Source of the DNA: Thalassotalea fonticola
GTDB lineage: Bacteria > Pseudomonadota > Gammaproteobacteria > Enterobacterales > Alteromonadaceae
Length of the DNA stretch: 64,000 nt
Assembly: GCF_032911225.1 (NCBI RefSeq)
Contig: NZ_CP136600.1
Span: 4,092,001-4,156,000 of the forward strand
Reading direction: 5' to 3'
Shown: piece by piece, positions 34,938 through 46,974 of the stretch
Numbering within the stretch: position 1 is the first letter of the stretch
Layout: every line of letters starts with the position of its first letter
Notes under the pieces: generated by a model
The model's input: the letters and a program-made list of their open reading frames with translations, nothing else
The model's database searches: none
Told to the model about the DNA's origin: nothing
Program-made: the position numbers and the translations under genes

Positions 34938-36146
34938 GTGACACGTAAAAAGCAAATTATTGTACCGATCGTCATTTTAGCAACTGGGATTTTGTTGTTT
35001 GTTGGCTTTTCAAGCATGAAAAAGCCACCGGAAGAAAAGGCTGATGTTGATATTACACCAATTGTCGCAGTTGAAGCCGTTACGGTTGCACCAATGACTC
35101 TGCAAGTAAGCTCGTACGGTATTGTGAAGCCTAAATATGAAACAGCATTAGTCGCGCAAGTTAGTGGTCAAATAGTTGCGCTGTCTGAAGACTTTGTTCG
35201 TGGTAAATTTGTTAACAAAGGGACATTACTCGCTCGTATCGACCCCAATGATTATGAAGCAGCCCTTATTGAAGCTCAAGCCAATATGGCATCTGCTCGT
35301 GCCGCACTAGAAACCGAACGTGCGCAAGGCAAGGTAGCCGAGAGTGAATGGAAACGCATTACTAATACTTCACCAACAGAATTAAGCTTACGTAAACCTC
35401 AACTTGCTCAGGAAATTGCTCGAGTTAAATCAGCTCAAGCTTCAATTTTAAGAGCTCAGCGTAATTTAGAGCGTACAGAAATACGCGCGCCGTATGATGC
35501 GATGATTGACAGCAGAACTATAGGTTTAGGATCGTTTGTTGGGGTTGGTACAAATATTGGGAAACTACTCGGTACAGCTCTAGCAGAAGTTCGATTGCCT
35601 GTTGCAGATAACCAATTACAATATTTGACCAATCAAGGTAATGGTGCAGTTGTTAACTTATTAGGTGCTTTTGCTGGTGTGGATGTGCAATGGAGCGCAG
35701 TCGTTGCCCGTAGTGAAGGCATTGTCGATAACAATAGCCGGATGACTTATCTAGTCGCTGAGGTAAAAGACCCATACGCCTTGATTGAAGGTGAAACTAC
35801 GCAAAAGACAGCGTTACGTTTTGGCTCTTATGTTAATGCCGAAATTGTCGGCGTTAAAATAGCTCAGGCTAGTTTGGTACCTCGTTATTTGGTTGAAAAT
35901 GGCCGTGTGGCGGTATTAGATGCTGAGTCAAAGCTACATTATGTAGATATTGAAATTGCCCGCCAAGAGGGAGGTAATGTAGTTGTTTCTAATGGCTTGT
36001 CTGATGGTGACCAACTTATTATCTCTGCCTTAGATTACCCTGTTAATGGCATGAAATTAGCTGTATCGAGCACCTCAGAAGAAAACGAAGTTGAGCAAGA
36101 TGTCGAAACATCAGCTGTCACTGTGGCGAGTGTAGGAGTTAACTAA
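34938..36146 (+). CDS. RND efflux periplasmic adaptor (membrane fusion protein)
   Basis: The 402-residue protein has an N-terminal membrane anchor or signal (IIVPIVILATGILLFVGFS). It then has the lipoyl halves (YETALVAQVSGQIVALSEDFVRGKFVNKGTLLARIDPNDY and RNLERTEIRAPYDAMI), an alpha-helical hairpin and a beta-barrel domain. It links the inner-membrane RND pump to an outer-membrane channel. The stop overlaps the start of the permease gene by 1 bp. No TolC-type gene is in the window. The substrate is unknown; AcrA/MexA-type drug efflux is the usual role. Confidence 0.92.
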   Translation: MTRKKQIIVPIVILATGILLFVGFSSMKKPPEEKADVDITPIVAVEAVTVAPMTLQVSSYGIVKPKYETALVAQVSGQIVALSEDFVRGKFVNKGTLLARIDPNDYEAALIEAQANMASARAALETERAQGKVAESEWKRITNTSPTELSLRKPQLAQEIARVKSAQASILRAQRNLERTEIRAPYDAMIDSRTIGLGSFVGVGTNIGKLLGTALAEVRLPVADNQLQYLTNQGNGAVVNLLGAFAGVDVQWSAVVARSEGIVDNNSRMTYLVAEVKDPYALIEGETTQKTALRFGSYVNAEIVGVKIAQASLVPRYLVENGRVAVLDAESKLHYVDIEIARQEGGNVVVSNGLSDGDQLIISALDYPVNGMKLAVSSTSEENEVEQDVETSAVTVASVGVN

Positions 36147-39100
36147 TGGAAGAGACTAACAAAGGCTTAATTGCTTGGTTTGCCCGCAATAGCGTAGCAG
36201 CGAATTTGTTGATGATCTTTATATTAGTGGGTGGCTTTTTAACCATTCAGACGATTAACAAACAGATGTTTCCACAAGTAAAAATCAATTGGATTTCTTA
36301 TGCCGCGCCTTATCCGGGTGCTGCCCCGCAAGAAGTTGAAGAAGGCATCACTATTAAGATCGAGGAAGCCCTCGAAACCGTGCAAGGCCTTAAACGAGTG
36401 ATTACTTACTCAAATCGAAATTATTCAAATGGCTGGTTCGAGGTAGAGCTAGACTATGATCCACAAGTGGTTTTAGAGGAAGTTAAATCAGCGATTGATT
36501 CAATTTCCAGTTTTCCAGCTGGTATGGAAAGAATCAAAGTTGAACGAGAAAAATTTCGCCAAGAAGTGATGTACATGAGCTTATATGGCGATCTAACCAA
36601 TGCAGAATTAAAAGAGTTAGGCCGTAAAATTCATACCGAAATACAGCAACTCCCCTTAGTCAATGTGTCGGAATTTTTCAGTGGCTTAAATTATGAAATT
36701 TCAATTGAAGTCAGTAAAGATAAACTACGCGAATACGGAATAAGTTTTAGGGATGTTGCGCAAGCAGTACGTAATTATTCAAGAAACATGTCAGCAGGGC
36801 AAATTCGTGCTGAAAATGGCTATATAAACTTACGCGTTGAAAACCAAGCTTATCGTGGTCATGAGTTTGAATTAATTCCCGTTATTACCTTAGAAGATGG
36901 CACTAAGATTTTACTTGGCGATCTGGCTACTATCATTGATGGCTTCGAAGAAGGCCTACAGTATTCTAAATTTAATGGTAAGAATTCTGCGACCATTTTC
37001 ATTGGTGCCGCAGACAATCAAAGTATTACTGATGTTGCTGGCGCAGTGAAAAACTATGTCGAAGAAAAACAAGAGGAGTTACCTGAAGGCGTTCAGTTAG
37101 AAACATGGGTAGACATGACTTATTACCTTGAAGGCCGCTTAAACATGATGTTAGACAATATGAAAAGTGGCGCGGTATTAGTTTTTTTAATGTTGGCGAT
37201 ATTTCTTCGTGTTCGTTTGGCCTTTTGGGTGATGATGGGATTGCCGGTCTGTTTTTTAGGCACGCTTTTAGTGATGCCGATGGAATTTGTCAATGTAACC
37301 ATTAACGTGATCAGCTTATTCGCCTTTATCTTAGTCTTAGGTATTGTCGTCGATGATGCCATTGTTATGGGCGAAAGTGCCCATGATGAAATAGAGGAGC
37401 ATGGCCATACCACTGAAAACGTGATTAGAGGGGTGAAGCGAGTTGCTATGCCTGCAACCTTTGGCGTGCTGACAACTATCGCGGTATTTGTGCCCTTTCT
37501 TTTTGGTGAGGGGCCGTCATCAGCCTTTGGCAAAGCCATAGGCGCAGTGGTTGTCTTATGTTTAATTTTCTCTTTGATTGAATCTAAATTAATCCTGCCT
37601 GCGCACTTAGTGAAAATGAAAGTGAAGGAATTTAATCCTAAAAACCCATTGGATAGAATTCGCCGTGTGGTTGATGTGAAGTTGAAAAGCTTTATCGAGA
37701 ATGTGTATCGCCCAGCGCTGGTTATATGTATTGAGTATCGTTATGCGGTATTAATGTTCTTTATTAGTTTGATGTTAATTAGTGCCGGTTTATTTTCTGG
37801 TGGTTTTGTTCGCTTTATCGGCCAGCCTAAAATACCTCATGATTTCCCACGTATTAATGTTGAGATGAATGTCGACGCCTCTGAGAAAGCAACACTGAAC
37901 ACCTTATTAAATATTCAACGTATTATTTATCAAATTGATGAGAAAATTGAAGCCGAGCATGGCACTTCAATGATTTCTGATATGCAAGTCGATCTACGCA
38001 GCCGTACCAGTGGTCAGGTTATGGTTAAATTGGTTGTGCCTAAACTAAGAGTAATGAACACCTTTGAATTAGCCGACTTGTGGCGTAACGCCATTCCTGA
38101 TTATCCAGGTGTTAAATCGTTAACGATTGGTGATAACTTTTTTGGTGGTGGCCGCGATGATGGTGACATTGCCTTTCGACTAGAAAGTTTGAATGACGCA
38201 CAATTATTAGCTGCGGCCCAAGAGCTGAAAGTGAAACTGAATACCCTTAAAGGTGTTGGTGATGTCAATGACAGTCGACAAACCAGCGCCAAAGAAGTAC
38301 AGCTTGAATTGAAACCTCTAGCCAATAGTCTAGGTTTGACACTGGCGGAAATAGCTTCACAAGTGAGTTACAGCTTTTATGGTTTAGAAGCACAGCGAAT
38401 TTTACGTGACAGTGAAGAAATAAAAGTTATGGTGCGTTATCCACTTGAGCAACGCAGTAGTGTTGGCCATGTCGATGATGTCATGATCCAAGCTCCGAAT
38501 GGCGCTGAGCTACCCTTGTCAGAATTAGCAGACATCGTGTTAACTGACGGCGTTACCCGCATTCGTCGAGAAAATGGTAATCGTACTATCAATGTCTGGG
38601 CTAGTGTTGATGCTGAACAAGTAGAACCTTTTGAAATTGCTAAAGACATTCGCGATAATTTTATTCCACAATTGTTAAGACAATATCCGCAAGTGCAAAG
38701 TGAAGTGTCAGGTAGTATCCAGGAAGAAATGGAAAGTGCCGATTCACAATTACGTGACTTTGTGATTTCGTTAATGGTGATCTTCTCACTTTTAGCTATT
38801 CCATTAAAATCTTACTCACAAGCCGTGATGATTATGGTGGTGATCCCCTTTGGTGTCATCGGTGCAGTATTTGGACACTTCATTTTAGGCATGGATTTAA
38901 GCGCGCTATCTGTGATGGGGATTCTCGCAGCAGCTGGCGTGGTGGTGAATGATTCTCTAGTGATGGTCGATTACGTCAACAATTCTCGTAAAGCAGGTGT
39001 GCCTTTGAAAGAGGCGGTTACTCATGCGGGTACGAAACGTTTTCGGGCCATTATGTTAACCTCGATAACGACCTTTATTGGTTTGGTACCGATCATCTTC

Positions 39101-39295
39101 TTTGAAACCAGTGCCCAAGCTCAAATTGTGATCCCAATGGCTGTTTCATTATCATTCGGCGTACTGTTTGCCACGATAGTGACCTTAATCTTCATTCCAA
39201 GTTTGTATGCCATAATTGAAGATTTGAAGAAGCTGTTTCCTCGTAAAAAATCAGCGTTGAATGTTGCTGCTGATCAGCTAGAAACAGCGAATTAA
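36146..39295 (+). CDS. RND efflux permease (AcrB-like)
   Basis: The 1049-residue inner-membrane trimeric pump has 12 helices. The N-terminal helix is followed by the periplasmic pore domain. The proton-relay acid pair is in helix 4 (VLGIVVDDAIVMGESAHDEIE), and the second helical half has GILAAAGVVVNDSLVMVDYVN. The length is normal for the HAE family. It is co-transcribed with the adaptor. The next genes on the same strand are a Cys-rich metallothionein-like gene and an ECF sigma factor; whether they are functionally linked is unknown. Confidence 0.93.
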   Translation: MEETNKGLIAWFARNSVAANLLMIFILVGGFLTIQTINKQMFPQVKINWISYAAPYPGAAPQEVEEGITIKIEEALETVQGLKRVITYSNRNYSNGWFEVELDYDPQVVLEEVKSAIDSISSFPAGMERIKVEREKFRQEVMYMSLYGDLTNAELKELGRKIHTEIQQLPLVNVSEFFSGLNYEISIEVSKDKLREYGISFRDVAQAVRNYSRNMSAGQIRAENGYINLRVENQAYRGHEFELIPVITLEDGTKILLGDLATIIDGFEEGLQYSKFNGKNSATIFIGAADNQSITDVAGAVKNYVEEKQEELPEGVQLETWVDMTYYLEGRLNMMLDNMKSGAVLVFLMLAIFLRVRLAFWVMMGLPVCFLGTLLVMPMEFVNVTINVISLFAFILVLGIVVDDAIVMGESAHDEIEEHGHTTENVIRGVKRVAMPATFGVLTTIAVFVPFLFGEGPSSAFGKAIGAVVVLCLIFSLIESKLILPAHLVKMKVKEFNPKNPLDRIRRVVDVKLKSFIENVYRPALVICIEYRYAVLMFFISLMLISAGLFSGGFVRFIGQPKIPHDFPRINVEMNVDASEKATLNTLLNIQRIIYQIDEKIEAEHGTSMISDMQVDLRSRTSGQVMVKLVVPKLRVMNTFELADLWRNAIPDYPGVKSLTIGDNFFGGGRDDGDIAFRLESLNDAQLLAAAQELKVKLNTLKGVGDVNDSRQTSAKEVQLELKPLANSLGLTLAEIASQVSYSFYGLEAQRILRDSEEIKVMVRYPLEQRSSVGHVDDVMIQAPNGAELPLSELADIVLTDGVTRIRRENGNRTINVWASVDAEQVEPFEIAKDIRDNFIPQLLRQYPQVQSEVSGSIQEEMESADSQLRDFVISLMVIFSLLAIPLKSYSQAVMIMVVIPFGVIGAVFGHFILGMDLSALSVMGILAAAGVVVNDSLVMVDYVNNSRKAGVPLKEAVTHAGTKRFRAIMLTSITTFIGLVPIIFFETSAQAQIVIPMAVSLSFGVLFATIVTLIFIPSLYAIIEDLKKLFPRKKSALNVAADQLETAN

Positions 39296-39618
39296 GTTAC
39301 GAGACGTGTAAAATAAAATCGTTAGGTGAGTTACTCAAATAAGTCGCGTGCTGTTGGGTAGCTCATTAACCTCACTTAACAAGAATCCCTTTGTATTGAT
39401 TTCTCAGCTTAAAGGTTCACGGCAAGCCATGTTGATATCGGCTCTCTAAACTCGTAGTTAACGCCTAAATATGCCAACCCATTATCAATGATCGCTATAT
39501 ATCAAATGGTACAATCCCAAAAAACTACAAAAATATTTAGAAAACAGCATCCTTTTTATAAGTTGTCCGTCTTTAGAGCTGAACATACATTTTTTACTAG
39601 CAATAAAGAGGTGCTAAA
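39296..39618. other. Region between the RND operon and the Cys-rich gene
   Basis: In this 323-bp region no gene was seen and no terminator hairpin with T-run after the RND permease. A sigma-70-like promoter is described separately at its end. Confidence 0.4.
39563..39591 (+). promoter_or_regulatory. Possible promoter of the metallothionein-like gene
   Basis: TTGTCC (39563-39568) and TACATT (39586-39591) are separated by 17 bp and lie 28 bp before the start codon. Each matches 4 of 6 consensus bases. An ECF-type promoter recognised by the sigma factor encoded next door is an alternative (TTGTCCGTC as the -35). Confidence 0.3.
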
Positions 39619-39786
39619 ATGAATTATCCTAACAATGAAAATCAAACTAAACTGATAACTTGTGGTTGTTGTAACTGTAAGTGCAATGATACGCAGTGTC
39701 ATTGCAGTGGTGATAGTCAAACAGATCAGTCAATATGTGAATGCAATAACTGTACATGTACATCTCATAACAGTTGTTGTGACTGA
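39619..39786 (+). CDS. Metallothionein-like small Cys-rich protein
   Basis: This is a short frame of 55 residues. Thirteen residues are cysteine (positions 15, 17, 18, 20, 22, 27, 29, 40, 42, 45, 47, 53, 54) and two are histidine (28, 50). The clusters CGCCNCKC, CHC and CECNNCTC follow the CxC/CxxCxC pattern of metallothioneins and recall bacterial SmtA (CACEPCLC). There are no signal peptide and no aromatic residues apart from Tyr3. AGAGG sits 6 bases before the ATG. It would bind Zn, Cd or Cu in the cytoplasm. It is followed after 61 bp by an ECF sigma factor with a Cys-rich tail. Assignment to a named family is uncertain. Confidence 0.7.
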   Translation: MNYPNNENQTKLITCGCCNCKCNDTQCHCSGDSQTDQSICECNNCTCTSHNSCCD

Positions 39787-39847
39787 TCTTTTGAATCTAA
39801 AATAAGGTAATAGTCGCTTTAATAAGCGGCTATTAATACAGTAGAAG

Positions 39848-40384
39848 ATGATAGAAACAATTTGGAAAACCTTTCACCAACAACTATTCAATTTTATAAA
39901 TAGCAAAGTTAATGACCCCGCAACTGCAGAAGATATACTGCAAGAAGTATTCATTAAAGTTCATAAAAATATTGAAAATTTAACTTCAAAAGATAAATTG
40001 CAACCTTGGCTATACCAAATATGCCGAAATACAATTATTGATTTTTATCGAGTTAAAAAACTAGATACAAATAGTGAAGATTTAGAGCTAATTGCCGATG
40101 AACAGCAAGATGAAAGTGATCAAGTACAACTGAGTCGTTGCATACGAACGTTAATTTCAGATTTACCAGACGGCATAAGCAGTATTTTATTCGATAGTGA
40201 ATTACAGCAAGTTAAACAACAAAACATAGCCGATAAACATCAATTAAGCTTGGCGGCGGTTAAATCTAGAATAAAACGAGGCAGGGTACAGTTGAGAAAT
40301 AAGCTTCAAGCTTGTTGTGACTTTGAGTTCAAAGAAAGTGGACCTGAAGCTGACTGTAAGAATAACTGTGGTTGCGAAGGCTGA
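39848..40384 (+). CDS. ECF sigma factor (SigZ-like) with Cys-rich C-terminal tail
   Basis: The 178-residue protein has sigma region 2 at about 10-75 (FINSKVNDPATAEDILQEVFIKVHKNI, QPWLYQICRNTIIDFYR) and region 4 at about 105-155 (QQNIADKHQLSLAAVKSRIKRGRVQLRNKL). The tail after region 4 contains Cys156, 157, 170, 174 and 176. A CC-x-FEF tail of this kind occurs in SigZ-type sigma factors, and a C-terminal cysteine domain acts as metal sensor in the CorE group. No anti-sigma gene follows. Together with the metallothionein-like gene just upstream, control by a metal is plausible. Confidence 0.85.
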   Translation: MIETIWKTFHQQLFNFINSKVNDPATAEDILQEVFIKVHKNIENLTSKDKLQPWLYQICRNTIIDFYRVKKLDTNSEDLELIADEQQDESDQVQLSRCIRTLISDLPDGISSILFDSELQQVKQQNIADKHQLSLAAVKSRIKRGRVQLRNKLQACCDFEFKESGPEADCKNNCGCEG

Positions 40385-40506: not shown

Positions 40507-42267
40507 TTAAATATATTTGTTTGCCATAAGTTTATTACACGCGGCATTAGGGTGAATCACGGCTTTGGTAATTTTTCCGTGCTGGTGTGTAATAATAGGC
40601 TTGTTAATGTAGCCATTAAATTTTCGTGATTTCCACTGGGATGATAGGGCAAAGTCGGTGCTTAAATTGGCAATTAACCCTGTAGATTTATGAACTTTTT
40701 GTTTGTTTTTACTATAAATATTGTCGCTTTCGTTAACGCTAGACAACTCATCGATAAAGGTTTTCTCACGACTTGCGGCAACAATGCAGATCCTATTTTC
40801 AGCTGCGCGAGATAACAAACTATATTCAACCTCGCACGACTCTTGAATATCAAAAGGCACAAGTAACAAGTGGATGTCATTCAAAGCCGCCACTTTGACT
40901 ATTGCAGGTATGTTAGCATCATCAGCTGTTAGCATAGCGACGTTTATGGTTCCTTTCTCTAAGGGCAACTCAATAATGTTTAAATCGTTACCTAGCACAG
41001 CCCATTGATATCTTCGACAAAAATGTAATTGTTGCTGTGTTGCAAATAAACCATGTTCACTTATCAAAACCGCCTGGTGCACTCCCTCAACCACTACACT
41101 CGTGCACACGTATTGAAACGGTCTCAGCACTGTGCTGACTTGTGAAATTAGCTGCTTACTCAAACAGGCTATTTGGCTAAGTTGTTCAGGATCATTGGTG
41201 ATTGTTTTATCCGCGACAAAGAATAGTTCAGGTAACTGGATTATGTCACTGAGGTTATTTTCAATATAATGACATACATCTTCAATGGCTTGTTCATTAG
41301 ATTTATAAGTTGCAAAGATAGCAACATTAGTGGTCTCTGGAGCGTTATTATCATGGTCAGATGTTTGTTTTTGCTTGGCGAGTATTTGCTCTTGGTAAAG
41401 TTCAGGACGCAGCTGTTTACTCAACTCAGTACCATCAGGTCGAAATTTATTGTTGATACTTAAGCCTGAACATTTCATCTCTATGTCAGCAAACACAAAA
41501 CCTTCTTCATTGTTCACTATTTGGGCTAGTACCTTACCATCAGGTGAAACTATTTGGCTTTGACCAACCCCAACGAGATATTTTGGGGGAATAAAACTTT
41601 GCGCTGAAAAAATGTCACTTTGCTGTTGTGGCATAAGAGGTCCAATTTTATTTGCAGTAGCTAAAAATACCTTATTTTCATGCGCTCTTGCTGGATCATG
41701 TAAACCACTTTGATCTAATGCGTATGAATTCATCGAATTACATAATAATTTTGCACCACGTATGGCCAATTCGTTCGGGATCTCAAAGGAAGCACCATCG
41801 CTATCGATTAAAAAACCAAGCTCACCAAATGGCGTTGCTACAACTTCCTGTACTTTATTCGCGCAAATAAAAAAGTCATTTTCATGTTCAGTCAATGTTG
41901 GTTTATCCACTTGATGAATAAGTTCTCCAGCCGGTGAAAATAAGCATGAGGTCACACTAATATTTGATTTAATTAAGCCGTTTTGATGATCTCGCAATAG
42001 ACCTCTTTGCACCGTTACATTGATCACGATATAGCAGGCATGTTTTTTTGCTTGCTGCGCTATACGCTGTAAAAAAGTACCATTAATCGCTAAGGCTTGC
42101 TCCCATGCATGATTATGATCGACGTACCAAGGCTGAGTATTACAAAATTCAGGAAGAACGATTAATGATGGTTTACACACGGCTGCTGCATTTATCACAC
42201 GAATACAAGTTGCTAGGTTTTCTTGAGTATTTAATGATGTGGCAAATTGAGAAACGGCTACTCGCAT
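40507..42267 (-). CDS. Tandem nitrilase-superfamily protein lacking catalytic cysteines
   Basis: The 586-residue protein has two carbon-nitrogen hydrolase domains. Domain 1 (1-265) keeps Glu40 (VLPEF) and Lys122 (DKPTLTEHE), but the position of the nucleophile reads LIDSDG, with Asp155 where the family has Cys. Domain 2 (about 315-580) keeps Glu347 (LPELFF), but the corresponding segment is MLTADDA (Thr447) and the lysine is not clear. The downstream LLCNSMNSYALDQSGLHDPARAHENKVF is typical for nitrilase-like amidases. It is probably inactive as a normal amidase or works otherwise. It is a single gene with its own promoter. Confidence 0.75.
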   Translation of the reverse strand: MRVAVSQFATSLNTQENLATCIRVINAAAVCKPSLIVLPEFCNTQPWYVDHNHAWEQALAINGTFLQRIAQQAKKHACYIVINVTVQRGLLRDHQNGLIKSNISVTSCLFSPAGELIHQVDKPTLTEHENDFFICANKVQEVVATPFGELGFLIDSDGASFEIPNELAIRGAKLLCNSMNSYALDQSGLHDPARAHENKVFLATANKIGPLMPQQQSDIFSAQSFIPPKYLVGVGQSQIVSPDGKVLAQIVNNEEGFVFADIEMKCSGLSINNKFRPDGTELSKQLRPELYQEQILAKQKQTSDHDNNAPETTNVAIFATYKSNEQAIEDVCHYIENNLSDIIQLPELFFVADKTITNDPEQLSQIACLSKQLISQVSTVLRPFQYVCTSVVVEGVHQAVLISEHGLFATQQQLHFCRRYQWAVLGNDLNIIELPLEKGTINVAMLTADDANIPAIVKVAALNDIHLLLVPFDIQESCEVEYSLLSRAAENRICIVAASREKTFIDELSSVNESDNIYSKNKQKVHKSTGLIANLSTDFALSSQWKSRKFNGYINKPIITHQHGKITKAVIHPNAACNKLMANKYI

Positions 42268-42487: not shown

Positions 42488-45400
42488 TTAAGCTGCTTCT
42501 AGAAACCTTTGTTGTTCAGAACTTGTGTCTCGTTCCGGCTCAGTGATCATAAAGCTTAATATGATTGGCACTAAAATCAGAGTGAACACAGTTGAAACTA
42601 CAAGGCCGCCAACTACTACTGCACCTAAGCCTCGATACAGTTCACTTCCCGCGCCTGGCATTAACACCAGTGGCAACATGCCACCGACTGAAGTTAATGT
42701 AGACATCATAATAGGGCGAACACGGCTTTCAACCGACTCTCTAATTGCTTGGCGAGGACTGATCGCTTTCTCTTTTAAAATGTTCAACGTTTGATGCACA
42801 ATTAAGATAGCATTGTTTACCACTACACCAGCTAAAATTACGAAGCCTAAAATAGTAAGTACATCTAAATTTTGAATAGGTGTGTAGCGGTCCATTACAC
42901 TGGCCCAATGCACACCCGCCAGACCAATAAAACCGCCTAGAGTTGCCAGTGGCACCGTCACTAGAATAACCAATGGGTATTTCCAGTTTTGAAATAATAC
43001 CACCATAACTAAATAGATCACTAACATCGCTAAAAAGAAGCTGGAAGCTAACATGCCAGTTATTGAACCATCACCAAGTAAAGCTGTTTTAATATCGTTA
43101 AGTTTGCCCGCACTGCCTGCAAGGTTAACCTCAACTAATGGTGATATAGCACCTGCACTGCGCAATTCATCTACCATGCTGTTGATTGACACAATTGCTT
43201 GTTCTAAAGGCATGCCTGCTGGCGGTGTAAACTGCAAAGTTACCGCTCGTTGGCGAGCTACATGCTTGATTTGGTCCGCACTTTGAGTACGTTCTAATAA
43301 TGCTAATGACTGTATATCGACAACCTGTCCTTGTGGCGTCGCTAAAGGCGTTTGCAATAATTCATCAATAGGGAAGTCACCTTGCTGAGCATTACTAACA
43401 ATTTTAATGTCTTTAAGTTCGCCACCAATTTCAAAGCCATTCATTAAAATAATGCCATCGCCATTCGCTTGTACGGCTAAGCCTAAATCACGACGTGTCA
43501 TGTCTAATTCAGCCAGCCTTTCATCTATTGGAGCAATGGCTAATTCTGGTGTCGGCAATAGAAAGTTAGCTGGCTCAGGCAACGTTGCATAAGGGCCGTA
43601 ATTACCGATCAATTTAAATAATAATGCCATTGCACCTTGGGTAATTTGCGGTAAATCATCACCGACTAAATCAATTTGAATGGCTGACCCGGTTGTACCG
43701 CCAGTATTAAATAATGGAAACTGAAAGGCAAAACCGATAACATCTGGGGCATTTACCCCCATTAATGTTTGATTAAGCAAATCGACTGCGTCGACAGTTT
43801 TTTCAGCATCCATCGGGATCAAACCGTGCAGCACTTGTCCGCCCATAGCGACTAAAAAGTAATGGTCAATTGCTGGCGCAGTAATTACTGAACCATCGCG
43901 TAAACGTACGTCTGGGCGATTGTCTTCGGTCGGAAGTGGACCATTGCGCAACTTAGTTTCTGCAGTAAATCGGTCGCCTGAAATTTCCCATGCTGGTCGT
44001 AACTTATCTTCAATGCGATCGCCTATTTCAGAAATTTGATCTAAATTATAACCAGGTGGTGGCACCATAAAACCAAAAGCGAAATTACGATTGCCCTTTG
44101 GCAAGTAGTCCATTGGTGGGATTAATAGTGCAATGCCGACCAACGTTAATACGGCAAAGCTGGCAATTACCATTACACGCTGTTTTGTACTGCCCGATAT
44201 TTTATAAACCAGACCGGCTATTTGTTTAGGTACCTTGCTCGCTTTTGCTGAAAGTCGGTTTAATAATCGGTTATTTATGTTTACCTGCTTACTGTCAGTT
44301 TTAGCTCTTAATAAATGGGCACCAGCAACTGGGATCACTAACACTGAAACAATAAAACTGATAAGTACTGCGGCCATAATTGCTAAGGATATATCTCTAA
44401 ATAACTGACCTGCGCTATCTTGAATGGTTAATATTGGAATAAACACCACTAGCGTTGTTAACGTTGACGCAAAAACTGCACCGGCAACTTCTTGTGTACC
44501 TTCAACACTAGCTTTTAGAGCGCTTTTGCCCTTTTCTAAATGACGAAATATATTCTCAATTACCACAATGGCATTATCAACCACCATGCCTACGGCAAAA
44601 GCCATTCCGGCTAAAGAAACAATATTAATTGAACGGCCTAATGCCACCAAAACAACAATTGATCCAACCATAGAAATGGGAATAGCAATGGCAATAACAC
44701 CAATTGTGCGTAAAGAGCGTAAGAATAATAACAAAGTAAATACTGCAAGAAGGCCACCAATTAATATATTGCTTTGTACCAAATCAATGGCATTTTCTAC
44801 ATAATTTGAAGAGTCCCAGGTCTGCACCAGTTCAAAGGTACCTGCAAGACCAAGTTTTTTGGCATGTTGTTCAAGTAAGCCTCCAGAGGCATTAAGCTTG
44901 CTAAATTCAGCCTTCAGTTCATCCATTGTTTCCAGTAAATTAGCGCCATTAGCTAATTGGAAATTGAAAAAGGGCATCTTCACACCACGCGCTCGCACCC
45001 AATCAGTCATTTCTTTATAGGTTTCAACAACTTCCCCTATATCTTTAAGGTAAACTGGTCCGTTTTCATCACGACGAATAACCGTATTCGCTACGGTCTG
45101 TGCATCGCTAAATCGGCCCATGGCACGCACCCGAATATCATTTTTGCCATCAGGTAATTTACCGCCGGAGTAGTTGCTATTAGTAAGTTGAATTGCATCC
45201 ACTAATTGACTGTAACTGATGCCATAGTTGGCTAGACGAATAGGGTCAAAACGAATTTGTAACTCCCGTTCACGAGCTCCCAAAATGCCAACTTTTGAGA
45301 TCCCTTCAATGTTTTCCAAACGTGGTCGTAACCGGCGCTCCATAAAATCATAAAGCGTTGTATTATCAAAATTGGGATCTGTTGCTGCTAATCCTACCCA

Positions 45401-45817
45401 AGCTATGTAGTCAACCGACATAGGATCAACACCTTCAACGGTTGGCTCACTTACACCGTTAGGGTAAGCCGGTACCTCATTCAGTTTTTGCACGACTTCA
45501 GCTTGGGCTTTACTAATATCAGTGCCTGTAGCAAATTCTAACCGTAATTGTGCTGCAGATGTTTGGCTGATACTGGTCATTGAAATTAAACCGGTTAAAT
45601 CAGACAGCACCTTTTCTTGTTCTGCCACCACATCCGATTCAATTTCTTCTGGTGAGGCGTTTTCCCAAAAAGTTCGTACACTAACAACAACAGAGTCAAC
45701 GGTTGGTGTCATTTGCACCGGCACTTGGTTAAAGGCCAATATACCAGCGAGTATTGATAAAATAACGCCGACAATAACGCTTATTGGTTGATTTACTGCG
45801 GTTTCTACCATTTTCAT
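42488..45817 (-). CDS. RND efflux permease, second system
   Basis: The 1109-residue inner-membrane pump is of the HAE type. The N-terminus is TAVNQPISVIVGVILSILAGILAF. Helix 4 reads GMAFAVGMVVDNAIVVIENIFRHLEKG, where the acid pair of AcrB (Asp-Asp) is Asp-Asn, a variant common in this subfamily. Large periplasmic loops and a second half with ILGFVILAGVVVNNAILIVHQ follow. It is slightly longer than AcrB (1049). It overlaps its adaptor gene by 1 bp. Expression is likely under the TetR regulator encoded upstream. Confidence 0.92.
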   Translation of the reverse strand: MKMVETAVNQPISVIVGVILSILAGILAFNQVPVQMTPTVDSVVVSVRTFWENASPEEIESDVVAEQEKVLSDLTGLISMTSISQTSAAQLRLEFATGTDISKAQAEVVQKLNEVPAYPNGVSEPTVEGVDPMSVDYIAWVGLAATDPNFDNTTLYDFMERRLRPRLENIEGISKVGILGARERELQIRFDPIRLANYGISYSQLVDAIQLTNSNYSGGKLPDGKNDIRVRAMGRFSDAQTVANTVIRRDENGPVYLKDIGEVVETYKEMTDWVRARGVKMPFFNFQLANGANLLETMDELKAEFSKLNASGGLLEQHAKKLGLAGTFELVQTWDSSNYVENAIDLVQSNILIGGLLAVFTLLLFLRSLRTIGVIAIAIPISMVGSIVVLVALGRSINIVSLAGMAFAVGMVVDNAIVVIENIFRHLEKGKSALKASVEGTQEVAGAVFASTLTTLVVFIPILTIQDSAGQLFRDISLAIMAAVLISFIVSVLVIPVAGAHLLRAKTDSKQVNINNRLLNRLSAKASKVPKQIAGLVYKISGSTKQRVMVIASFAVLTLVGIALLIPPMDYLPKGNRNFAFGFMVPPPGYNLDQISEIGDRIEDKLRPAWEISGDRFTAETKLRNGPLPTEDNRPDVRLRDGSVITAPAIDHYFLVAMGGQVLHGLIPMDAEKTVDAVDLLNQTLMGVNAPDVIGFAFQFPLFNTGGTTGSAIQIDLVGDDLPQITQGAMALLFKLIGNYGPYATLPEPANFLLPTPELAIAPIDERLAELDMTRRDLGLAVQANGDGIILMNGFEIGGELKDIKIVSNAQQGDFPIDELLQTPLATPQGQVVDIQSLALLERTQSADQIKHVARQRAVTLQFTPPAGMPLEQAIVSINSMVDELRSAGAISPLVEVNLAGSAGKLNDIKTALLGDGSITGMLASSFFLAMLVIYLVMVVLFQNWKYPLVILVTVPLATLGGFIGLAGVHWASVMDRYTPIQNLDVLTILGFVILAGVVVNNAILIVHQTLNILKEKAISPRQAIRESVESRVRPIMMSTLTSVGGMLPLVLMPGAGSELYRGLGAVVVGGLVVSTVFTLILVPIILSFMITEPERDTSSEQQRFLEAA

Positions 45818-46974
45818 TATAGAGCCCCGCGCGCTACTGAATTATTCGTTGTGTCAGCTACAGCAACAACCGGTCCTGGCATTAAGCGTTCATTGCCTTC
45901 GGTGATCACCTTATCATTTGCTTTTAAGACAGGGCTCATCACTGCTGCTATTTTACCTTGATGAAATAGCACTGAAACAGGCACTGGCTCGGCAGTTTGT
46001 TTATCGTCTGCGGTATGAACCTTGTAAACTAACGTATTGCTACCACGGCGAACAATAGAGTCTTTAGGAACGGTTAAATAGCGAGATTTCATCCCTTCAG
46101 GTATCCAGCCGGCAACTGACATTCCTGGCATTAAACCAAAAGACTCAACTTGAGTTACTAACTTAAATGTACGAGCTCGTGCGTCCACATTACGTAATAC
46201 TTTACTGTTATAGCCGCTAAGCATTTTGCCACCAACATTCAAGCCCAAACTCTCTGGCGCCGTGTTAAGGTGCTGAGCAAAACGCTCTGGCACGTCCAGC
46301 CAAGCTTCAAGCTTGCCTTCTGAGGTTAATGTTAGAGCGCTGTCGCCTGCACCTAACCATTGCCCTGGCTCTGCCAGTCTTTGCGTAATTTGGCCATTAA
46401 ATGGAGCTTTAATAGACATGTCATCTAAACGCACTTCAACAATACGTAATTGCGCCTGCAAAGCTTTAACTGCTTCATGCGCCGCAAGCACTTGAGCTTG
46501 TGTGATTAAGGCGGCAGCTTTGCTTTGACGTAATCTCTGCTCTGAAATAGCATTTTTAGTTGCCGATTGCTTATAGGCAACAAAGTCTTCTTCGGCTAAG
46601 TCAAACTCGGCTAAGGCTAACGTATGCTGCGCTTTTGCTAGAGCCAGTTCTGAAGTTAATCGAGATTTTTCTGCTAACATCTTACGGTCATCAATTTGTA
46701 GCAATGCTTGCCCGGCTTTAATCGTGTCACCTTCATTAACAAATACCTTAATAACAATACCAGCTTCAGCAGAAGCAACACTTGTTTGGGTAACTGCTTT
46801 TAAAGTGCCTGTTACACGTTTATGCGCTTGCAGTTCTTGTTCAGTAACTGTAGAAAAGCGCACCACTTGATTGGCCGATGCCGCCGTAGAGAAAAACACC
46901 GAAGTAACAGTGCTAATAAAAAGAAAAGATAATGCAGATGCTTTAATTAAATTTAAAAATGAATATGGACGCAA
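45817..46974 (-). CDS. RND efflux periplasmic adaptor, second system
   Basis: The 385-residue protein has a signal peptide (ASALSFLFISTVTSVFFSTAASA). The lipoyl halves are VTQTSVASAEAGIVIKVFVNEGDTIKAGQALLQIDDRK and IVEVRLDDMSIKAPFNGQITQRLAEPGQWL, separated by a helical hairpin; a beta-barrel and membrane-proximal domain follow. It is the first gene of the two-gene operon adaptor-permease. A TetR-type operator lies about 30 bp upstream of its start. Confidence 0.9.
   Translation of the reverse strand: MRPYSFLNLIKASALSFLFISTVTSVFFSTAASANQVVRFSTVTEQELQAHKRVTGTLKAVTQTSVASAEAGIVIKVFVNEGDTIKAGQALLQIDDRKMLAEKSRLTSELALAKAQHTLALAEFDLAEEDFVAYKQSATKNAISEQRLRQSKAAALITQAQVLAAHEAVKALQAQLRIVEVRLDDMSIKAPFNGQITQRLAEPGQWLGAGDSALTLTSEGKLEAWLDVPERFAQHLNTAPESLGLNVGGKMLSGYNSKVLRNVDARARTFKLVTQVESFGLMPGMSVAGWIPEGMKSRYLTVPKDSIVRRGSNTLVYKVHTADDKQTAEPVPVSVLFHQGKIAAVMSPVLKANDKVITEGNERLMPGPVVAVADTTNNSVARGAL

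Follow-up and report, generated by a model that had tools for sequence, protein, structure and literature searches.

A metallothionein-like gene paired with a SigZ-family sigma factor in Thalassotalea fonticola as a candidate self-regulated metal(loid) detoxification operon

The ECF sigma factor SigZ was described in 1997. The role of SigZ in Bacillus subtilis is given as 'Not yet determined' in the table of a 2020 review (PMC7522486), and a 2023 table lists no function for it beyond 'ECF' (PMC10141391). A 2025 survey of the Acidithiobacillia finds SigZ there and mentions neither 'arsenic' nor 'metallothionein' (PMC12194929). A close described parallel is CorE of Myxococcus xanthus, an ECF sigma factor that is controlled by its own Cys-rich C-terminus and has no known anti-sigma factor (PMC3107203, PMC8999054). 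Like the SigZ reported here, CorE and CorE2 (ECF44, now ECF238) combine a C-terminal Cys motif with the lack of an adjacent anti-sigma gene and a link to metal defence, and we propose that they also work alike (PMC3107203, PMC8999054). Groups ECF287 and ECF288 have Cys-rich C-termini as well, and a CorE-like mechanism has been suggested for them (PMC8999054); the likeness to SigZ drawn here is that of the C-terminal extension. Metallothionein genes under metal-dependent control, as we propose for this locus, are known from SmtA with SmtB and MymT with RicR, but those regulators are repressors, whereas the regulator here would be a sigma factor (PMC10141476). The literature searched gave no metallothionein partner or promoter for SigZ, although an earlier mention in ECF classification or CorE2 work is possible. 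The titles and abstract openings found indicate no metallothionein–ECF sigma pair of this kind, a search combining bacterial metallothionein, sigma factor and arsenic found none, and the passages found on ECF sigma factors and arsenite or arsenic resistance do not mention SigZ.

Here, we describe such a pair in a 64,000-nucleotide stretch of the T. fonticola genome (contig NZ_CP136600.1, positions 4,092,001 to 4,156,000; hereafter the window). The pair is probably a compact, self-regulated operon for the detoxification of soft metal(loid)s, with arsenite as the leading candidate. Its relatives and their gene partners lead us to infer that SigZ acts as a sigma factor for soft-metal(loid) stress, arsenite being the foremost candidate inducer, and that the effector, which binds the metal, is the small protein.

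The gene pair in the window

The locus comprises the following features, all on the forward strand.

39547-39575, +: conserved ECF-type promoter-like element GCATCCTTTTTATAAGTTGTC-CGTCTTTA, the proposed SigZ promoter (from conservation)
39607-39613, +: ribosome-binding site AGAGGTG of the small gene, 5 nt before the ATG (from the sequence)
39619-39786, +: metallothionein-like 55-aa protein with 13 Cys (24%) (from ORF translation, Cys content and conservation)
39808-39835, +: 12-bp hairpin between the small gene and sigZ that lacks a T run; may stabilise the mRNA or mark a site of its processing (from folding)
39848-40384, +: sigZ, an ECF sigma factor of the SigZ family, 178 aa (from NCBIfam and Pfam matches and relatives)
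40313-40381, +: Cys tail at the C-terminus of SigZ (residues 156-178, CCDFEFKESGPEADCKNNCGCEG), which may sense the metal(loid) (from invariant Cys)

The initial annotation had described a 55-residue protein with 13 Cys and a good ribosome site, 61 bp before an ECF sigma gene, and the ORF coordinates agree on every point: the stop codon ends at 39786, leaving 61 bp to the sigma ORF on the same strand. Its statement that no anti-sigma gene follows is also borne out, as the next long ORF (40507-42267) lies on the opposite strand and encodes a 586-aa protein with a carbon-nitrogen hydrolase domain; the match to that domain spans residues 1-263 only. The promoter-like element, the Cys tail of the sigma factor and the intergenic hairpin are three features beyond that annotation. 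Two RND-type efflux systems on opposite strands (34938-39295 and 42488-46974) flank the pair; they were discarded as a clue to the ligand, since such pumps do not adjoin the pair in the relatives compared. A phage or plasmid origin was likewise rejected: there is no phage match in the DNA, and the 32 plasmid records that carry SigZ relatives are all below 60% identity.

Of the 814 window ORFs of 20-100 aa, none but the small ORF combines at least 7 Cys with a Cys content of at least 17%, and the second-highest Cys fraction among window ORFs of at least 30 aa is 15%. The protein has the form of a metallothionein, being small, very Cys-rich and furnished with CC and CxC motifs, and on these grounds it is probably metal-binding. 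Neither it nor its 10 SigZ-linked counterparts matched any Pfam or NCBIfam family, metallothionein models included for the 55-mer, at E up to 1. A homology search with the 55-mer as a single sequence found one relative, and an 11-row profile found the same one; because word-based searches miss Cys-rich proteins, we used linkage to find the relatives of the small gene instead.

The sigma protein scores 176.4 bits against the NCBIfam SigZ model TIGR02959 (cut-off 168.65), the family to which SigZ of B. subtilis also belongs, B. subtilis being one of two control genomes above the family cut-off. Against the second SigZ model, NF007215, it reaches 191.8 bits and stays below the cut-off of 212; judged by these scores, it is a divergent SigZ. 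The Pfam domains are Sigma70_r2 (54.3 bits, cut-off 24) and, barely, Sigma70_r4_2 (25.8 bits, cut-off 25.7). The protein ends in CCDFEFKESGPEADCKNNCGCEG, with Cys at positions 156, 157, 170, 174 and 176 of 178. In an alignment of 32 near relatives, its own sequence included (32 of the 38 nearest among 69 proteins), C59, C98, C157, C170, C174 and C176 are invariant. A CC pair within the last 45 residues is found in 129 of 145 SigZ-like proteins (two of the 147 have no intact frame) and in 0 of 55 other ECF proteins, and the last 40 residues hold on average 3.9 Cys in SigZ-like proteins versus 0.2 in the others. The window's SigZ thus has a Cys-rich C-terminal extension of the CorE kind. The CxC motif that CorE-type proteins carry between sigma2 and sigma4 is absent from it (residues 61-110). 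That linker motif is not kept by most ECF238 members either (PMC8999054). We do not file this sigma factor as a CorE-like member: it lacks the linker CxC, matches the SigZ family and has a metallothionein-like gene as its partner. Sensing of metal by the sigma factor itself, through the conserved C-terminal Cys motif, is plausible, and by analogy with CorE we infer that SigZ senses through its Cys tail. The tail varies between branches of SigZ, so the ligand may vary too.

Linkage of the small gene to SigZ and a shared promoter-like element

Loci came from the genomes of the window's family, from named genome contigs and from searches of the class, the order, the genus, a further family draw, another order and the Bacteroidota, and the 227 loci examined encode 202 distinct sigma proteins. 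We called a locus SigZ-like if its best tblastn score to six queries was at least 100 bits, and counted as a small gene any ORF of 20-100 aa that lies within 300 bp of the sigma gene on its strand and has 7 Cys or more, making up at least 17% of its residues. The sample leans towards relatives of the window, because most searches were run with its sigma factor, or with an alignment headed by that protein, as the query. By these definitions, 25 of 147 SigZ-like loci have a small gene (19 upstream, 6 downstream) and 122 have none detected, versus 0 of 55 other ECF loci, which are by-products of the same searches and not a matched sample. No small gene was found on the opposite strand or at a distance of 300-1400 bp. 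Where the tail reads CxxxC(G/S)C (in full CC...CxxxC(G/S)C), the linkage is complete, all 10 distinct gammaproteobacterial loci having a Cys-rich ORF upstream. Fisher tests give p = 2e-4 for 25/147 versus 0/55 and p = 3e-9 for the 10/10 loci with this tail, with loci taken as independent, which is not quite the case.

The 10 gammaproteobacterial loci comprise seven from the window's own family, one from Pseudoalteromonas lipolytica (L036), one from an Oceanospirillaceae MAG (L075) and one (L195) whose genome belongs to the order of L075. Within the family, 28 of 196 genomes have a match to the sigma factor at E up to 1e-25. Of the 30 family loci fetched, the seven top-scoring ones (L001, L007-L012) all carry a Cys-rich ORF of 46-60 aa upstream, and the other 23 (L013-L035) have different tails and no Cys-rich ORF there, some ORFs of at least 11% Cys that overlap the sigma gene or lie on the opposite strand not being counted alike. 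Among the 369 genomes drawn from the class and the 394 from the order, the window's own is alone in having the CxxxC(G/S)C tail, so the gammaproteobacterial pair is sparse. Looser pairs, below the 17% rule, are found in Marinifilum (L037), Chlorobiota (L061) and Paenibacillus (L079). Across the regions compared (the window, L238-L244, L036 and L075), no ORF of at least 90 aa recurs besides the sigma gene, except between L242 and L243, which belong to one genus; L239 and L244 are short contigs. As its neighbours are otherwise unrelated, the pair moves as a unit.

A quickly built tree, which covers 143 of the 147 SigZ-like proteins, includes the tail columns and has 58 weak branches among 140 inner ones, places the gammaproteobacterial pairs in one clade (SH-aLRT 99), adjoined by a Flammeovirga locus with its small gene downstream (support 93). 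The tree leaves out L020, L027, L032 and L074, the last of which is a pair locus. Most other pairs belong with them to one region of 36 rows, itself weakly supported (86), and the five labels can be placed on the tree with 8 changes, whereas shuffled labels take 25 on average. The link between small gene and SigZ thus looks old, and the gene order has changed.

When 11 sequences of the small protein are aligned, that of the window among them, six Cys columns show no variation and a seventh almost none. With two congeners, the window's gene shares 13 and 11 Cys columns, with 3 and 5 switches between TGT and TGC, and the third pairing among the three congeners adds 13 shared columns with 6 switches. 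Over the whole gene, non-synonymous codon differences exceed synonymous ones (26 versus 9 to L007, and 29 versus 14 to the other congener), and no clear purifying selection is seen outside the Cys codons; the constraint seen is therefore on the cysteines and not on the remainder. On this comparison, the small protein is one that evolves fast while its cysteines are kept. The sigma factor of congener G052, for comparison, is 82% identical to that of the window. Two expectations of the initial annotation can be judged from these data: conserved linkage, whose absence it had named as a refutation, holds at 10 of 10 loci in the closest clade, and conservation of the Cys positions is seen in the six invariant columns, with exact positions kept only in part.

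Upstream of the pair lies a promoter-like element whose proposed −35 is GCATCC (39547-39552) and whose proposed −10 is CGTC(TTTA) from 39568. As GCATC(C/T)-N15-CGTC, it occupies 39547-39571, with some 50 bp left to the ATG of the small gene, and the same arrangement, with a spacing of exactly 15 nt, stands upstream of the small gene at 10 of 10 gammaproteobacterial loci. The window holds one match, and only 1 of 100 window shuffles has any. The 4.9-Mb single-contig genome to which the window belongs has a single match to the exact patterns, located at the pair, and six congeners without this SigZ have none to the exact pattern. We also searched the 400 bp upstream of sigZ for a plainer pattern, GC(A/G)TC(C/T)T-N13-15-CGTC, for which the shuffled rate is 0.0003-0.001. 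It is present at 10/10 gammaproteobacterial pairs, 10/15 other pairs (6/6 with the small gene after sigZ and 4/9 with it before), 20/122 SigZ loci without a small gene and 0/55 other ECF loci, and hence missing at 5/15 and 102/122 of the second and third groups. The 10 gammaproteobacterial pairs both suggested this pattern and trained a promoter PWM, and so are not independent support. Sites above the 99% null of the PWM were found at 14 of 17 non-gammaproteobacterial loci with a small gene (among the 17 are two looser pairs, L037 and L079, neither of which has a site), at 19 of 120 SigZ loci without one and at 1 of 55 other ECF loci. Where found, the site precedes the first gene of the unit, whether small gene or sigZ (at L041 with an internal Met start assumed). 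The conserved element supports the view that the sigma factor drives the metallothionein-like gene and that the operon is autoregulated; its conservation and position are the grounds for proposing that SigZ transcribes both genes.

The regulon may consist of this one operon, with weaker sites possible. With the A/G and C/T alternatives allowed, 8 of the 10 gammaproteobacterial genomes have no site other than that of the pair, and no convincing target goes with the additional sites of the remaining two. Allowing one mismatch in the window's own genome adds one match, within a coding sequence; a backward control pattern matches twice. A wider regulon through sites at L251 and L252 (one mismatch) and L253, L255 and L259 (exact) was not accepted, because these lie inside genes, between irrelevant-looking genes or at apparent repeated contig ends. 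Searches for a housekeeping promoter or terminator showed no clear excess over shuffles, and the leader has no Rfam match at E up to 1. The stretch between the two genes folds better than 100 mononucleotide shuffles at p < 0.05 in 7 of 10 gammaproteobacterial loci and at p of 0.05-0.07 in the other 3, and the folded stretches differ in sequence between loci. The hairpin would fit an element that stabilises or processes the mRNA and so keeps the small-gene message in excess of the sigma message.

Gene partners of SigZ and the likely signal

A same-strand ORF of at least 100 aa follows within 500 bp at 89 of the 147 SigZ-like loci. At E up to 1e-10, the matches among these 89 genes include arsenite methyltransferase (14), ArsI/CadI (5) and glutathione synthase (10), and most of the 89 are other or unnamed neighbours. 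The methyltransferase matches are to NF008823. Four of these putative ArsM genes are above the cut-off (L044, L049, L053 and L227), and the others were assigned from sequence and identity to L044 (L047, L056, L057, L058, L063, L064, L069, L118, L120 and L122). The excess of ArsM over a small control is modest (p = 0.005), and SigZ–arsM operons in several phyla are possible. ArsI/CadI-type genes follow SigZ at L030, L204 and L206, where they are above the cut-off when scanned singly, and at L203 and L205, where they were assigned from sequence. The glutathione synthase matches (model glut_syn_euk) come from closely related loci in genomes akin to the window's at the level of the order, where the gene stands directly after SigZ (L127-L130, L133, L134 and L136-L139); scanned singly, L134 is below the cut-off, and the others were assigned from sequence. 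An ArsH gene lies downstream at L023 (above the cut-off), with a match below the cut-off at L020. Single sightings among the partners scanned singly are a GST-like protein (L018) and a PhzF protein; a PhzF-family gene, 4 of the 89, follows SigZ relatives with a reduced tail that lacks the CC (L068, scanned singly, and L076, L219 and L223, assigned from sequence). In Paenibacillus sp. Soil750 (L079:2251-5780), arsenic genes and a Cys-rich ORF meet at one SigZ locus: the ORF follows SigZ beside divergent MarR-like, ArsI/CadI and ArsN1 genes, the latter two both above the cut-off. For 40 genes downstream of other ECF loci, the families listed (25 of 32) include anti-sigma factors and none of ArsM, ArsI/CadI, glutathione synthase or ArsH.

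What these partners have in common is that they deal with arsenite and further metal(loid)s that seek thiols. Together with the pairing behind a conserved promoter-like element, this suggests that SigZ turns on a defence directed at metals that seek sulfur, arsenic-like ones among them. The gammaproteobacterial loci with a small gene share no adjoining arsenic gene, so arsenite is proposed for them from their cousins. The initial annotation had read the pair as a possible metal-response unit, to be probed with Zn, Cd, Cu and Hg. The metal signal is kept and the reading gains from the conserved linkage and promoter-like element, but the likely signal shifts, arsenite or similar soft metal(loid)s being put first because the partners of SigZ elsewhere are often arsenic and thiol-detoxification genes.

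That the operon is instead induced by one of the classical transition metals (Cu, Cd, Zn or Hg), with the small protein as an ordinary buffering metallothionein, is a serious possibility, albeit one we think does not have the better chances. CorE responds to copper through its Cys-rich C-terminus (PMC3107203), the name of the ArsI/CadI family spans heavy metals generally, and two SigZ-adjacent permeases (L051 and L052) score with SaoE and a Cu/Zn efflux family, all below the cut-off. The curated models, however, name mostly arsenic or thiol enzymes as partners, and no copper, zinc or cadmium regulator or ATPase is among the families listed (25 of 186) for the 89 downstream genes. The glutathione synthase matches (10/89) and the GST-like protein at L018 would also suit a response to thiol or disulfide stress, in which SigZ is a redox switch whose CC and CxxxCxC can be oxidised, disulfides between the tail cysteines being possible, and the small protein acts as a thiol buffer or a store of zinc. 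We regard this as unlikely, since ArsM, ArsI, ArsH and ArsN1 are arsenic-related partners and not general thiol-stress genes. Somewhat more doubtful still is a regulatory role for the small protein, as a metal-dependent antagonist that replaces the missing anti-sigma factor. Its gene occupies an operon position frequent for anti-sigma genes and stays beside sigZ despite its sequence drift; yet it is upstream in some clades and downstream in others, and the many SigZ genes without a detected small gene argue that SigZ can work alone. A chance adjacency of a spurious Cys-rich ORF and a sigma gene, which the lone relative of the 55-mer and the mostly non-synonymous differences between congeners might suggest, is ruled out for practical purposes by the 10/10 linkage, the common promoter-like element and the Cys columns shared despite TGT/TGC switches.

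Proposed working of the operon and its significance

For the preferred reading, a self-regulated detoxification operon, we envisage that an entering metal(loid) would bind the Cys tail of the few SigZ molecules present and thereby switch sigma activity. SigZ would then bring RNA polymerase to the GCATCC-N15-CGTC element ahead of the small gene, so that the metallothionein-like gene is transcribed together with sigZ itself. As the first gene of the operon, with a strong ribosome site, the small gene would be expressed in bulk, and its product would chelate the soft, thiol-seeking metal or metalloid. As the free metal(loid) drops through the small protein, SigZ would be switched off again. We hold only tentatively, and rather doubt, a bolder version in which SigZ is a cross-phylum arsenite sensor through its own Cys tail, and the regulon of one branch has shrunk to a single portable operon whose metallothionein-like protein is both effector and off-switch, stripping the ligand in place of an anti-sigma factor.

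Through its linkage, promoter-like element and arsenic partners, SigZ acquires a specific, cheaply testable role and a sequence to seek, and bacterial metallothionein-like proteins that existing models miss gain a genomic handle for discovery. As a self-contained two-gene unit, the pair is a natural candidate for metal(loid) biosensors. If the proposal is true, a sigma-factor route to metallothionein control would join the known repressors.
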